From a bacterium SCSIO 12643 (GTDB lineage Bacteria > Bacteroidota > Bacteroidia > Flavobacteriales_G > Salibacteraceae): 64,000 nt of DNA. Location of the stretch: positions 3,844,001-3,908,000 of the forward strand of contig CP073750.1 in assembly GCA_024398135.1 (NCBI GenBank). The letters are read 5' to 3'. A program made the position numbers and the translations under genes. Within the stretch, counting starts at the first letter, position 1; the number at the start of each line of letters is the position of its first letter. This document shows positions 16,313 to 21,493 of the stretch, piece by piece. Below the pieces are notes generated by a model. It searched no databases and was not told the origin of the DNA. It worked only from the letters and a program-made list of their open reading frames with translations.

Positions 16313-17119
16313 TTATGAGTTTTGAGAGGCAATGGCTTTACGGACACTGCCATGTTTTAAAAGTAGATTTTCAGCTGTTTGGTAGTCTATATTTAACGCA
16401 TTTTGAACCATCAATGTTCCACGGTCAACGAGTTTGTTGTTACTTAATTGCATGTCCACCATACGATTTCCTTTCACACGACCCAATTGAATCATAATCG
16501 TAGTGGAGATCATGTTTAATGCCAGTTTTTGCGAGGTCCCCGATTTCATACGGGTACTTCCGGTAACAAACTCCGGTCCAACTTCAATTTCAATAGGAAA
16601 TTTTGCTTCCTGGCTAACAGGAGAATTTGGATTGTTTGTAATTCCTCCGGTTAGGATACCAACGTCATTACATTTTTTTAAAGCACCAACCACGTATGGC
16701 GTAGTTCCTGATGCTGCTATGCCAATAACGGTATCTTTGGTGTTGATATTATATGCTTCTAAATCTTTGAAGCCTCCATCAATACTGTCTTCAGCAAATT
16801 CAACAGCTTTACGGATTGCAGAATCTCCACCGGCAATAATGCCAATAACCATTTCATGATCGACTCCAAAAGTAGGAGGACACTCTGATGCATCCACAAC
16901 TCCTAAACGCCCACTGGTACCTGCCCCAATATAAAATAGACGTCCTCCTTCACGCATTCTGGGTACAATTTCCTGAATCAGGGCACTGATTTGAGGTATA
17001 GATTTTTGTACGGCTAATGCAACTTTTTGATCTTCCTGATTGATGCCTTGCAATAATTCATCAACGGATAATTCGTCCAGATTTTTATGTAATGATTCCT
17101 GTTCCGTAATACGCTTCAT
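16313..17119 (-). CDS. murQ: N-acetylmuramic acid 6-phosphate etherase
   Basis: 268 residues. SIS-fold enzyme that splits MurNAc-6-phosphate into GlcNAc-6-phosphate and lactate in cell-wall recycling. Seen: sugar-phosphate loop 'GAGTSGRLGVVDASECPP' with the catalytic Glu in SEC, and 'GSTRMKSGTSQK'. Slightly shorter than many homologues (about 300) because of a short C-terminus. Neither an anhydro-MurNAc kinase nor a PTS component lies next to it, so the substrate source is encoded elsewhere. Confidence 0.93.
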   Translation of the reverse strand: MKRITEQESLHKNLDELSVDELLQGINQEDQKVALAVQKSIPQISALIQEIVPRMREGGRLFYIGAGTSGRLGVVDASECPPTFGVDHEMVIGIIAGGDSAIRKAVEFAEDSIDGGFKDLEAYNINTKDTVIGIAASGTTPYVVGALKKCNDVGILTGGITNNPNSPVSQEAKFPIEIEVGPEFVTGSTRMKSGTSQKLALNMISTTIMIQLGRVKGNRMVDMQLSNNKLVDRGTLMVQNALNIDYQTAENLLLKHGSVRKAIASQNS

Positions 17120-17203: not shown

Positions 17204-18682
17204 TTATCGGGGAAGCGTAATGGATACGGTGGTACCTTTTCGAACAACAGACTCAATATTGATGGTTGCATTGTGCATATCAACAATTCGTTTCACCACC
17301 GTAAGACCTATTCCAGTACCTTTTTCTCCTTTAGTTCCTTTTCGACTTTGTTTTTTACTATAGTCAAAAATTGTACTTTGAATCTTCTTGGTAATACCAA
17401 CTCCTTCATCAATGATCTGTATGGTTAAACTTGATGGAGTAGTGACCGTTTGGATTTTAATCGTTTGCCCTTCGTTTGAGAATTTAATAGCGTTATTTAT
17501 GATGTTATGTAACGCGTTTTTAAAAAATGCCTGATCAACTTGTATCAAAATACTCTCTGGAAAATTAAGAACAAGATCCAGGTTTTTATTTTCTAATTTT
17601 TCATGAAACAGTGACTTTAAGTTCACACATATATCATGTAATGACACTTCGGATATGTCCAGTTCAATGTTACCAAAATGGACATTAGACCAGTCATACA
17701 GACGATTTACATAATCGTTTAAATCTCCCAGACCTTTATACATCATATTGAAAATCTCTGCCTGATCCGGTTTGAAGTTTTTCATGAATTCTTCCTTTCT
17801 TTTCAGGTAGTTCATTAACGAATATGCACCTCCTAATGGACCTTTGATATCGTGAGAGAAAATTGAAATGAACTGTTCTCTATGTTTAAATAGTTTGCGT
17901 AGGCTTTTTTCAGTTTTAATCAGTTCCTGATGTTTTAGATACATCTCACGTGCCATCTGAACATTTTTATGTTTATCCGGAAATCTCTCGGAAATGTTTT
18001 CAATAAAGATGAAGTTCCGTTCATCAGTACGTATTGCAGTGGCTTGTAAAATAAATTCTTCTGTATTGTCTTCGTTATAAACACTCCACATTCCAGATAA
18101 GAGTTTGCCGTCTTTTCCGGAATTAAATAACTGCTGTGTGTCTGGCATGAAAATTTCCAAAAACGGAAACAATTCCTCCAGATTAAATATGGGACTGCTA
18201 TAATTGTAATGCGGAAATATAACCTGAAACCAATGCGGGATATTTCCATTTAAAACAAATCCTTTATCCGTTTTTTCGAAGTGCATAAAACCCAGTGTAT
18301 CGAATACGTTGCTGGATAAAATCGCTTTATCTGTTTTCATTACCAATTGATCAATAAGTTCTTTTTGATTGTGCTTTTGGATGGTTTGTTCCCATAACAA
18401 TGCTTCCTTAGGTTGTTTGTAAAAACTAATAGAAACTTCTTTTAAATTGTTTTGAAGGATAATGTTTCCTTTAAAACCTTCAAAAGCCATGTCTTTTAAT
18501 ACGAGTTCTTTTTGCGTCATTGGAAACAATCCAAAAAGAAATGGAAATATATCGTCTATACAGTTTCCTTTTTCAATTTTAAAGTTAAATGTATCTGAAA
18601 AAACATTTTTCGACCCCAAAACCCTTCCACAAGGTTCCGTAATGATTGTAGTGATTTTATTTACGTTATCGGAATCGGTCAT
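17204..18682 (-). CDS. Soluble sensor histidine kinase of the GTPase operon
   Basis: 492 residues, no signal peptide or membrane helix. N-terminal half (about 20-235) looks like two divergent sensor/PAS-like alpha-beta units. A short coiled linker leads to HisKA with H277 in 'FSHDIKGPLG', then HATPase with N-box 'NIINNAIKFS', G1 'DEGVG' and G2 'GEKGTGIGL'. No receiver domain and no adjacent response regulator. It is the last gene of a four-gene operon and starts 7 bases after the GTPase stop, so its input is probably linked to the GTPase (inference). Confidence 0.85.
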   Translation of the reverse strand: MTDSDNVNKITTIITEPCGRVLGSKNVFSDTFNFKIEKGNCIDDIFPFLFGLFPMTQKELVLKDMAFEGFKGNIILQNNLKEVSISFYKQPKEALLWEQTIQKHNQKELIDQLVMKTDKAILSSNVFDTLGFMHFEKTDKGFVLNGNIPHWFQVIFPHYNYSSPIFNLEELFPFLEIFMPDTQQLFNSGKDGKLLSGMWSVYNEDNTEEFILQATAIRTDERNFIFIENISERFPDKHKNVQMAREMYLKHQELIKTEKSLRKLFKHREQFISIFSHDIKGPLGGAYSLMNYLKRKEEFMKNFKPDQAEIFNMMYKGLGDLNDYVNRLYDWSNVHFGNIELDISEVSLHDICVNLKSLFHEKLENKNLDLVLNFPESILIQVDQAFFKNALHNIINNAIKFSNEGQTIKIQTVTTPSSLTIQIIDEGVGITKKIQSTIFDYSKKQSRKGTKGEKGTGIGLTVVKRIVDMHNATINIESVVRKGTTVSITLPR

Positions 18683-18689
18683 TTTTCAA

Positions 18690-19181
18690 TTATATGATAG
18701 AATTTGCCAAGGCAATAAAGGTCTCATCAACCTGAGCACCAGTTTTAGCAGAGGTTTGAACAACTTTCCAGCCCATTTCTTCAATAGTTTCAATATCTTT
18801 TGGGTTGAGCTCCCAGGAATCTTTTAAATCTGATTTATTGATCATTAAAATAAACTCTTTGGCACCCACCGTTTTAAAAACAAGATTTTTCAAATCCATG
18901 GCTACTTTGAGCGTTTCTTTACGCGTTCCGTCCACTACCAATAAAAAGCCTGAAACTCCTGTGAGATATGAGGGACGTACATGTTGATAATCATCTTCAC
19001 CATTTATATCCCAAATAATTAAACGTACATTTTTTCCATCTATGATCAGGTCTTTTTGATCTGTTTTGACCCCAATAGTGGTGTGGTATTTATCTGAAAA
19101 AATGCTTTTAACATACTTTTCAACCAAGCTGGTCTTTCCAACAGCAAAAGCACCCAGGATACATATTTTCTTTTTTATCAT
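18690..19181 (-). CDS. Ras/Rab-like small GTPase
   Basis: 163 residues, nearly a bare Ras-type G domain. G1 GAFAVGKT (10-17), G2 Thr about 35, G3 WDINGED (57-63), G4 NKSD (115-118), G5 TSAK (143-146). Two departures from Ras are visible: Phe replaces Gly at the Ras Gly12 position, and Glu62 replaces the catalytic Gln61. There is no C-terminal Cys motif, so it is not lipidated the eukaryotic way. The start overlaps the upstream stop by 4 bases (ATGA), showing tight coupling. Switch-regulated control of envelope partners encoded in the operon is inferred. Confidence 0.88.
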   Translation of the reverse strand: MIKKKICILGAFAVGKTSLVEKYVKSIFSDKYHTTIGVKTDQKDLIIDGKNVRLIIWDINGEDDYQHVRPSYLTGVSGFLLVVDGTRKETLKVAMDLKNLVFKTVGAKEFILMINKSDLKDSWELNPKDIETIEEMGWKVVQTSAKTGAQVDETFIALANSII

Positions 19182-20878
19182 TTATTGGTGTTTATTGGCG
19201 TAAAATTCATTTTTCGTGGACTGAGAACCACCTGATTTGTATCAATTTCTAATTGGATCAAATGCTCTGCTATACCTTGAGATATCAGATATCTGGAAAC
19301 AGAACGTAATCTCTTTTTTGCGAATTGTAGATTACCTGATTTGGAACCGGAATTATCTGGGGCAATCTGTACGCTTAAGTAGGAGGTAGGTGTATACTTT
19401 TGATAGTTGTTGAATTGAGAAACAATATGTTGTAGTAACACTTTATTCTCAGGTACCAAATACGAAACGCCAAATGAAAACTCGATGAATTGTTTTTTGA
19501 AATCTGATTCAATGGCCCGGATACTATCTGCACTGGTATTTGTGAGTTGATATAGATTAAAGTGCACAGGATATTCCTGTTGGTCAATAAATTCTTTGGT
19601 TTCAGAGATCCAATGATCAGGTGCTTTACCTGAAATAAATATAGTATCTCCAACCAGTTTTGTTTGAACAGAGTGAATGGGAGTGATTTTCTTTAGAATA
19701 CGTTGGTAACTATAAATAGGGTCCATACTAAAATACGGAGTCCATTTATAATCTATTTGTGTGCTATCTATCTGGTATTTTAGTGCTAATCTCCCAAAGT
19801 TATTGATTAAAACATCTTTCATTCCCTTGACGTAATATCGCCCTGATTCATTACCCTGTTCTAAAATGACCACACTAGGAATCGCTTTTAATTCATTGAT
19901 GAACCCGTTCCATCTATATTGATCCCGAATGGAGAAAAAACTCCAGACACCAATAATAAACGCTAAAACGGAAGCTAAAACAATCACTTTGGTATGATTA
20001 ATAGGTTTTTCTTCTGATTGATGCGAGATAATACAATTCTTTAGATAAGGTATTAACGGGATGGCGGCATCAGAATCTCCTTCAAAATCATTTAATACAT
20101 GCGCATATTTACCATGAATATCTTCTAAATTGGTTTTAAATAATTCACGGGTAGATTCTTGAGGTGTACCTTCGATTACTACAGCCAGATAGGCGAGTGG
20201 CCCATTTTCAATCCAAACATTAAAGTCGTTTAACTTAATGGTGTCTAGTGTGTCGTTGGTTTGGATATGTTCTGAAAAAGAGTCTTTTACAAAATCCTGA
20301 ACCGCAGTAAGCATAGAGGAAACCATGTCTGCATCATCGAATTTAAAATCTTTGGCATAGACTTCCTGAATCAATAGACCTGTAGATTTATGGATTAGGA
20401 AAACACTATTGATTTTGTATTTCACTCCTTTTAAGAGGATGATTTCAGCATATGATTTATCTGAAAATAAAGCTTCAACTCTCCACAGGATTCTTTCAAA
20501 GGAGAATTTTTTTTCCAGAGTTTGATTCAGTGATTGAATCATTTCTCGAAAAGTGTCCGCAATGGATTTTCGAATAGCTGCTCCCATTACAGGAAACAAG
20601 GCATCTGCCAGTGTTTTCGGATTATTTTGAACACTGGTAAAAATAGCTTCTTCAATTACAGGCAATAAACGTTCTCCTAGCGGTTCATTGAACTGAATAC
20701 TTTTAAGCACAGCGTTAGGTAAAATACGTCCGATTTCCTCAGTAAAAGCATCACGGTTTTTCAACCATGACTGAAGTACCCGGAGTTCATTCGGATTTAA
20801 GCCCAGAATTAACTCTCTTAGTTCATCTAACGATTTATTTTGGTTGTGCGGGACAATATTTTCACTGTCCTGTGACAT
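19178..20878 (-). CDS. Membrane-spanning protein with cytoplasmic roadblock/longin-like region and periplasmic OmpA-like domain
   Basis: 566 residues. Cytoplasmic helical N-terminus (1-140); an alpha-beta domain (about 148-265: 'INSVFLIHKSTGLLI', 'DADMVSSMLTAVQDFVKDSF') that reads like the roadblock/longin class known to partner small GTPases; one membrane helix 297-317. The periplasmic part has a BON-like segment (about 390-450, 'GDTIFISGKAPD') and an OmpA/MotB-like peptidoglycan-binding domain (470-555). No signal peptide: N-in, C-out topology. It begins the base before the stop codon of the coiled-coil gene ends and overlaps the GTPase gene by 4 bases. The roadblock/longin assignment is by pattern and uncertain. 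Confidence 0.65.
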   Translation of the reverse strand: MSQDSENIVPHNQNKSLDELRELILGLNPNELRVLQSWLKNRDAFTEEIGRILPNAVLKSIQFNEPLGERLLPVIEEAIFTSVQNNPKTLADALFPVMGAAIRKSIADTFREMIQSLNQTLEKKFSFERILWRVEALFSDKSYAEIILLKGVKYKINSVFLIHKSTGLLIQEVYAKDFKFDDADMVSSMLTAVQDFVKDSFSEHIQTNDTLDTIKLNDFNVWIENGPLAYLAVVIEGTPQESTRELFKTNLEDIHGKYAHVLNDFEGDSDAAIPLIPYLKNCIISHQSEEKPINHTKVIVLASVLAFIIGVWSFFSIRDQYRWNGFINELKAIPSVVILEQGNESGRYYVKGMKDVLINNFGRLALKYQIDSTQIDYKWTPYFSMDPIYSYQRILKKITPIHSVQTKLVGDTIFISGKAPDHWISETKEFIDQQEYPVHFNLYQLTNTSADSIRAIESDFKKQFIEFSFGVSYLVPENKVLLQHIVSQFNNYQKYTPTSYLSVQIAPDNSGSKSGNLQFAKKRLRSVSRYLISQGIAEHLIQLEIDTNQVVLSPRKMNFTPINTNK

Positions 20879-21442
20879 CTATTTTTTGTCTTCTAAAACA
20901 TTAGGTGATTCATTCTCTCCAGCAATGTTATACGCTAAATCTGTCAACATCATGGCTAAAGAAGAACGATCTACTTTGTTGTTTTGTAGCTCGTTACTGC
21001 TGTTATCTAAACGGTTGATTAATGATTTGTTAAGCTCAGTCATTTGATCACTCATTGTGTTGCTGAGACTAAGTAGTTGTTGGTTATTAGCTGAGAAATT
21101 GTCTGCAGTAGATGCTTTGAATTTCTTAAATGATTCTTCTAACGATTCAATATCAGAAAGAATACGCTTATCGGATTTTTTGCGTGCATCTTCTTCTTCA
21201 ATGAGTTTCTCATTCAAAATTTTGATTTCGTTTTTGAAGTACGCTTCTAACGATGCCATTTTCTTATCTGCTTCAGCTTTGTTTTCAGCTACAGATAAAG
21301 CCAGTTTGGTTTCTAATTTTTCAAATCTCTTTTCATACTCGTTCATGTTATTCCCAAATAGAATATCACGAATTTTGGAGATGTTTTCAATTTCGTTTGG
21401 CGCTTTTTCAAGATGATCGATATCTATTTTCTTTTTTGACAT
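20879..21442 (-). CDS. Coiled-coil protein, first gene of the GTPase operon
   Basis: 187 residues, almost entirely heptad-like and charged (about 35-150), no signal or membrane segment. A short conserved-looking tail reads 'VDRSSLAMMLTDLAYNIAG'. Probably a cytoplasmic scaffold. It abuts the membrane protein gene without a gap. Not recognised as a named family. Confidence 0.7.
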   Translation of the reverse strand: MSKKKIDIDHLEKAPNEIENISKIRDILFGNNMNEYEKRFEKLETKLALSVAENKAEADKKMASLEAYFKNEIKILNEKLIEEEDARKKSDKRILSDIESLEESFKKFKASTADNFSANNQQLLSLSNTMSDQMTELNKSLINRLDNSSNELQNNKVDRSSLAMMLTDLAYNIAGENESPNVLEDKK

Positions 21443-21485: not shown

Positions 21486-21493
21486 CAAAAATA
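21486..21493 (-). promoter_or_regulatory. -7 box of the GTPase operon
   Basis: Minus-strand TATTTTTG matches TAnnTTTG, 43 bases before the first start codon of the operon. Confidence 0.45.

Follow-up and report, generated by a model that had tools for sequence, protein, structure and literature searches.

A Group 1 Rup GTPase operon from a Salibacteraceae bacterium with a predicted longin domain in its OmpA-bearing membrane protein

The Group 1 Rup gene neighbourhood was defined by a computer survey that predicted a signalling role for it (Wuichet & Sogaard-Andersen 2014, PMC4316618). As described there, the set brings together a coiled-coil protein, a protein in which a domain of unknown function is joined to a membrane helix and an OmpA domain, a Ras-like GTPase, and an output protein with a conserved Gln (PMC4316618). 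The GTPase displays eukaryote-like G1-G5 motifs without the Gln of G3, and the authors suggested that the Gln of the output completes GTP hydrolysis, no Rup member having been characterized by experiment at that time (PMC4316618). The four-gene operon considered here is located at positions 17204-21442 of a 64,000-nucleotide stretch, hereafter the window (contig CP073750.1, positions 3,844,001 to 3,908,000, assembly GCA_024398135.1), from the Bacteroidota bacterium SCSIO 12643, a member of the Salibacteraceae. Judged from its sequence, this operon encodes a Group 1 Rup system, its gene set thus being already known. The main new insight concerns the formerly "unknown" domain of the membrane protein, which is predicted to adopt a longin fold.

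A literature search for experimental work on Rup GTPases gave only the 2014 survey (PMC4316618), subscription papers lying outside its coverage, and no regulator, partner or function of any Group 1 Rup GTPase was found in the literature searched. The original prediction, made from the letters of the window alone, knew of no characterized system with this gene set; the set itself turned out to be described since 2014, whereas the absence of an experimental characterization held in the literature searched. The locus shares with Group 1 Rup the four kinds of genes, including the coiled coil and the OmpA-bearing membrane protein, a GTPase without the G3 Gln, and an output with a Gln in its N-terminal part (Q102 and Q242, a match judged from the published description and not from the logo column of 2014). 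It differs from the 2014 description in several respects. The main domain of the OmpA protein, left there as of "unknown function", is here predicted to be a longin, and the Gln is placed on the exit helices of PAS domains. The outputs, typically histidine kinases or GGDEF/EAL proteins in 2014, extend among the relatives considered here to cyclases, sigma-54 activators and HD-GYP proteins. Lastly, some Bacteroidota possess soluble versions of the membrane protein, although the 2014 survey did call the membrane helix only "often" present.

Two other bacterial systems are comparable. In the MglA/MglB polarity switch of Myxococcus, too, a bacterial Ras-like GTPase is paired with a roadblock/longin superfamily protein, but the partner encoded here is predicted to be longin-type and anchored to membrane and wall, and the GTPase best matches Rab and Ras proteins. 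An identity with the MglA/MglB system was rejected, as no gene for an MglB-family roadblock (PF03259, Robl_LC7) is found in the window genome. Actinobacterial conservons (CvnA-D) are likewise four-gene operons with a small GTPase, a roadblock-superfamily protein and a histidine kinase. However, they combine an MglB roadblock, CvnC and a membrane kinase, whereas the present operon combines a coiled coil, a longin-OmpA protein and a soluble PAS-PAS kinase. The operon is therefore not a conservon, the genome having no roadblock-family gene and the operon carrying a coiled-coil protein and an OmpA-type membrane protein instead.

The longin assignment comes from an AlphaFold2 model of residues 1-290 of the 566-residue protein, computed with an alignment of 88 family members. 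Its mean predicted local distance difference test score (pLDDT) is 80.8, and the 10-residue means lie at 84-98 across residues 151-280, except for the loop 201-210 at 65. The predicted domain shows the topology b-b-a-b-b-b-a-a (strands E155-163 and E169-174, helix H183-200, strands E213-216, E219-225 and E229-236, helices H241-263 and H269-284), including the extra C-terminal helix typical of longins. All 50 PDB matches listed by Foldseek are longin/roadblock superfamily proteins or complexes containing such parts (longin, roadblock, TRAPP, adaptor, Mon1/Ccz1 and Fuzzy), with modest single E-values, the best being 2.3e-4. In VIA-align, longins rank first, aligning through residue 286-289 and over up to 129 residues. 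The VAMP7 longin gives Z 13.6 with a root-mean-square deviation (rmsd) of 2.5 over 118 residues, the Sec22b longin Z 13.1 (rmsd 2.6 over 123 residues), Fuzzy Z 12.7 (rmsd 2.7 over 123 residues), a TRAPP subunit Z 12.9 and Ykt6 Z 12.3. Roadblocks rank after them at Z 10-10.8, MglB reaching Z 10.8 over 108 residues and ending near residue 262. Longins are distinguished from roadblocks by the loss of an N-terminal helix and the gain of a C-terminal helix at the same place (PMC10933270), and the model shows the longin pattern: it has the extra C-terminal helix, and nothing in it matches the N-terminal helix of roadblocks. As a prediction, the assignment of the domain to the longin/roadblock fold class has good support, and within this class the model is of the longin and not the roadblock type. 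A roadblock/longin-like domain had been proposed at about residues 148-265 of this protein; the superfamily fold was indeed recovered in the model, at about residues 153-289, and not an unrelated one, but in its longin and not its roadblock form.

At the sequence level, no convincing Pfam model was found for the longin region. Fuz_longin_1 matched weakly in 6 of the 88 family members (best E 0.0014) and Robl_LC7 weakly in two, and the curated longin families gave no match above cut-off in 15 genomes. The fold assignment rests on structure prediction, because a search of the PDB with the family profile gave no significant match. Against three Mon1 longin sequences, the family profile scored 26.6, and none of 40 column-shuffled controls exceeded 16.8, whereas the score of the profile against bacterial roadblocks, 15.1, fell within the shuffle range. 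Homology between this domain and the longins of eukaryotes is no more than suggested. Within the family, conservation is highest in the central longin helix (residues 183-201), and the region corresponding to this helix dimerizes in roadblock/longin proteins (PMC10933270). With the eukaryotic longin regulators of Rab proteins, namely Mon1-Ccz1, Fuzzy-Inturned/CPLANE and the TRAPP core, the protein shares the predicted longin fold, the genetic pairing with a Rab/Ras-like GTPase, and the weak yet above-chance profile match to the Mon1 longin. It differs from them in being bacterial, in having one longin per protein, and in the fusion of this longin to an inner-membrane helix and an OmpA domain.

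The association of these genes is conserved well outside the window. When 84,980 species genomes were scanned with a degenerate pattern, 430 relatives were recovered, of which the best 80, together with 22 further loci, were examined; the gene-order counts come from the best-scoring 80 and hence their percentages describe close relatives. The coiled-coil gene lies directly upstream of the longin-OmpA gene in 73/73 testable loci, and the GTPase gene directly downstream in 68 of 75, being found elsewhere in the examined stretch in six of the remaining seven. The genes thus adjoin in many genomes, as had been anticipated. Gene set and order are conserved over many phyla, short overlaps between the operon genes being common among relatives, and this recurrence of the gene order across bacterial phyla places the set far beyond chance. 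In the loci L041, L044, L050, L052, L058, L061 and L066, the GTPase gene is near the longin gene but on the opposite strand, so the longin-GTPase association survives operon rearrangement. No natural longin-GTPase fusion was found among the loci examined. Three loci (L045, L046 and L047) carry the coiled-coil and longin-OmpA genes with no GTPase gene within the stretch examined, this gene being elsewhere in the genome or absent.

A profile of the longin-OmpA protein matched in 14 of 395 Bacteroidota genomes, and a back-translated search of genome contigs with the single protein P0002 gave no match. In the tree, the window protein groups with the Bacteroidota OmpA-type set (support 88/89). The window genome is the only carrier of the gene among 35 genomes of its own family, and both gain by transfer and repeated loss are possible. 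Two loci bear doubtful labels. L082, whose metagenome bin carries the label Klebsiella pneumoniae, clusters closely with a deltaproteobacterial row; L126, whose bin carries the label Nitrosospira, hardly differs from a Nitrospira row. Mislabelling or mis-binning seems likely in both cases.

The nucleotide motifs of the GTPase are intact (G1 GAFAVGKTS, G3 WDINGED, G4 NKSD, G5 TSAK), and among proteins of solved structure it is closest to Rab and Ral. Glu62 replaces the catalytic Gln in G3, a position occupied among 92 GTPases by Glu in 69 and by Asp in 14 (83/92 combined). The output proteins are more diverse in their enzymatic parts, 78 of them including 26 HATPase_c kinases, 18 class III cyclases, 10 sigma-54 activators and 9 HD-GYP-type HD proteins. 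What they share is the N-terminal region, which holds a type A PAS-like domain, a type B one, or both; type A closes with a Q-x-x-N helix and type B with a Q-x-x-R helix. The conserved Gln of the outputs therefore lies on PAS exit helices. The window kinase has both types: in an AlphaFold2 model of its residues 1-265, two PAS folds are followed by the helices 92-116 and 238-264, which carry Q102 and Q242, and the first PAS aligns with the PAS of ThkA at Z 10.0 (rmsd 2.0 over 82 residues). With PAS folds preceding HisKA and HATPase_c, this protein is a PAS histidine kinase. Because the PAS-Gln region is constant while the output domains vary, it may be the common docking site of the GTPase.

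Other versions of the output were also observed. In L042, L043 and L051, PAS is joined to a sigma-54 activator that ends in a DNA-binding part of the Fis type, so that the GTPase would act directly on transcription, and the output of L014 is a class III adenylate/guanylate cyclase. In L053 (6535-6954, minus strand), a stand-alone output-like N-terminal domain of 139 residues with no enzyme attached is encoded beside the GTPase and is possibly a free GTPase partner.

The membrane protein was expected to end in an OmpA-like domain, and its sequence bears this out. One strong hydrophobic segment (Kyte-Doolittle maximum 2.45 at residue 299) precedes an OmpA-like stretch, the orientation being presumed. 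This C-terminus is weak by Pfam (17.3 bits for a cut-off of 27.2) and clearer with NCBIfam OmpA-family models (best 2.1e-6, below the whole-protein cut-offs), and it retains a D508, N516 and R523 pattern resembling the peptidoglycan-binding loop of OmpA. Rhizobial versions (L014, 7854-10919; L015, 7848-10913; L128; L134) are long OmpA proteins of 885-1021 residues, some of them encoded on large plasmids. Those of L014 and L015 contain several tandem copies of the periplasmic unit, and four segments of the 1021-residue homologue match residues 318-433 of the window protein. Conversely, in six Bacteroidota relatives (L039, L048, L053, L054, L055 and L056), the longin protein is short (250-290 residues) and soluble, with neither the membrane helix nor the OmpA end, and these six proteins form a separate, well-supported branch of the tree.

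The coiled-coil protein carries from about residue 20 a motif, ISKIRDILFGNNMNEYEKRFEKLE, that resembles the N-terminus of the longin-OmpA protein, the pattern of the shared segment being [IL]R-x-[IL]L-[FLM]G. In hhalign, the two profiles score 27.6; none of 40 column shuffles exceeded 14.0, and no other segment exceeded 11.6. The coiled-coil and longin proteins may pair together or bind a common partner. To our knowledge, this shared motif has not been reported earlier.

The operon is formed by four consecutive open reading frames, all on the minus strand, with intergenic gaps of 0, -4 and +7, exactly as first laid out; coordinates are collected in the table. The box proposed as its promoter element, TATTTTTG, is indeed present ahead of the first gene. 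However, the pattern TANNTTTG is not enriched in the window (62 seen for 85 expected), so the box is weak promoter evidence. The gene murQ, read from its sequence as encoding the N-acetylmuramic acid 6-phosphate etherase of peptidoglycan recycling (16313-17119, minus strand), starts 84 bases past the kinase stop. A functional link to the operon was considered and rejected: relatives that lack the operon have the same genes to the left of murQ, so the adjacency of murQ to the operon was treated as coincidence. In a genome of the same genus (L138), the block leftwards from murQ is collinear with the window, but collinearity is lost at the operon, of which no gene was detected.

Table. Features of the operon and of the proteins it encodes (window coordinates)
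Feature	Position	Strand	Remarks
Bacteroidota-type -7 box TATTTTTG (pattern TANNTTTG)	21486-21493	-	44 bases ahead of first start codon; position only
Coiled-coil cytoplasmic protein	20879-21442	-	187 residues
Longin-membrane helix-OmpA protein	19178-20878	-	566 residues; N-terminus presumably cytoplasmic, C-terminus presumably periplasmic
LxELRxLLxG motif common with coiled-coil protein, residues 15-40 of longin-OmpA protein	20759-20836	-	profile comparison
Predicted longin domain, residues 153-289	20012-20422	-	AlphaFold2, Foldseek, VIA-align
Single inner-membrane helix, residues 294-317	19928-19999	-	hydropathy
Periplasmic unit, residues 318-433	19580-19927	-	matched by several segments of rhizobial homologues
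OmpA-like peptidoglycan-binding domain (predicted), residues 462-543	19250-19495	-	D508/N516/R523
Rup-type Ras/Rab-like GTPase	18690-19181	-	163 residues; Pfam Ras E 1.9e-31
Soluble histidine kinase, output protein	17204-18682	-	492 residues; HATPase_c E 1.4e-21
First PAS domain and exit helix with Q102/N105, kinase residues 9-116	18335-18658	-	AlphaFold2 mean pLDDT 86.5; ThkA match
Second PAS-like domain and exit helix with Q242/R245, kinase residues 124-264	17891-18313	-	AlphaFold2
HisKA (His277) and HATPase_c, kinase residues 268-492	17207-17881	-	Pfam

In the reading that we prefer, with a probability of about 0.45, a wall-anchored longin platform would set the state of the GTPase, which would then bind to the kinase at the exit helices of its PAS domains. 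The longin domain, probably dimeric and held with the coiled-coil protein, would be the platform for the GTPase and would change its nucleotide state, exchange being more likely than hydrolysis. The OmpA end would tie the longin protein to peptidoglycan, and the periplasmic part may feel the state of the envelope and steer the longin domain. Once loaded with GTP, the GTPase would bind the exit helices and set the activity of the kinase as the readout. The kinase Gln would supply the missing catalytic Gln, and the effector, by completing GTP hydrolysis, would thus also end the signal. In other species, a swapped output domain would provide a different readout of the same switch. This reading is supported because the conserved gene order, the predicted longin fold, the Mon1 profile match, the strong conservation of the central longin helix, the intact nucleotide motifs of the Gln-less GTPases, the constancy of the PAS-Gln region and the 2014 predictions agree. 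Several points weigh against it. Longin folds also have roles independent of GTPases, as in SNAREs and adaptors. The action of the Gln in trans is hypothetical, and this residue could be a plain signalling residue of the PAS linker instead. No ligand or response regulator is known. Moreover, some relatives are devoid of the OmpA part; the core system can therefore do without envelope sensing, and wall sensing is an addition to it.

The longin domain could also simply place the GTPase at a wall-anchored site, with no effect on exchange or hydrolysis, the output protein alone being in charge of regulation. Indeed, many longin/roadblock proteins are platforms or anchors (PMC10933270), the OmpA end suggests localization, and the invariant Gln sits in the output protein; since the short soluble versions keep the longin domain without an anchor, which implies a role beyond anchoring, such a restricted function appears rather unlikely. 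Alternatively, the flow could be reversed, the PAS domains of the kinase sensing a cytoplasmic cue and setting the GTPase, which would be the output and act with the longin-OmpA protein on the envelope. PAS domains are usual sensors, and an operon without a response regulator gene fits this direction. The conservon model also has a sensor protein acting on the GTPase (PMC4316618, PMC13343842), but the related outputs (sigma-54 activators, cyclases and HD-GYP proteins) make sense as downstream ends rather than as inputs, and we judge the reversal unlikely. That the domain is a roadblock, acting like MglB as the GTPase-activating protein of an MglA/MglB-type pair, is very improbable. The superfamily is the same and MglB structures match at Z about 10.7 over 108 residues, but longins align over up to 129 residues with Z up to 13.6, the model has the additional C-terminal longin helix and leaves the roadblock N-terminal helix unmatched, the profile similarity is to Mon1 and not to bacterial roadblocks, and the genome has no Robl_LC7 gene.

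Longin domains have been described as a feature of eukaryotes and Asgard archaea (PMC4917890, PMC10933270). A predicted bacterial longin encoded beside a Rab-like GTPase in many phyla bears on the origin of the longin-GTPase pairing of membrane traffic, and the longin assignment and the Gln on PAS exit helices are two concrete candidate interfaces. If the wall-anchored switch is real, it would constitute a bacterial route by which a GTPase passes the state of the wall on to kinases, cyclic nucleotides, c-di-GMP turnover or sigma-54 transcription. A broader and doubtful proposal is that bacterial longins are widespread envelope-anchored exchange factors for Rab-like GTPases that read the cell wall and drive exchangeable outputs, as a counterpart of the Mon1-Ccz1, Fuzzy and TRAPP platforms; if true, the origin of the longin-GTPase partnership would have to be sought further back than Asgard archaea and eukaryotes.

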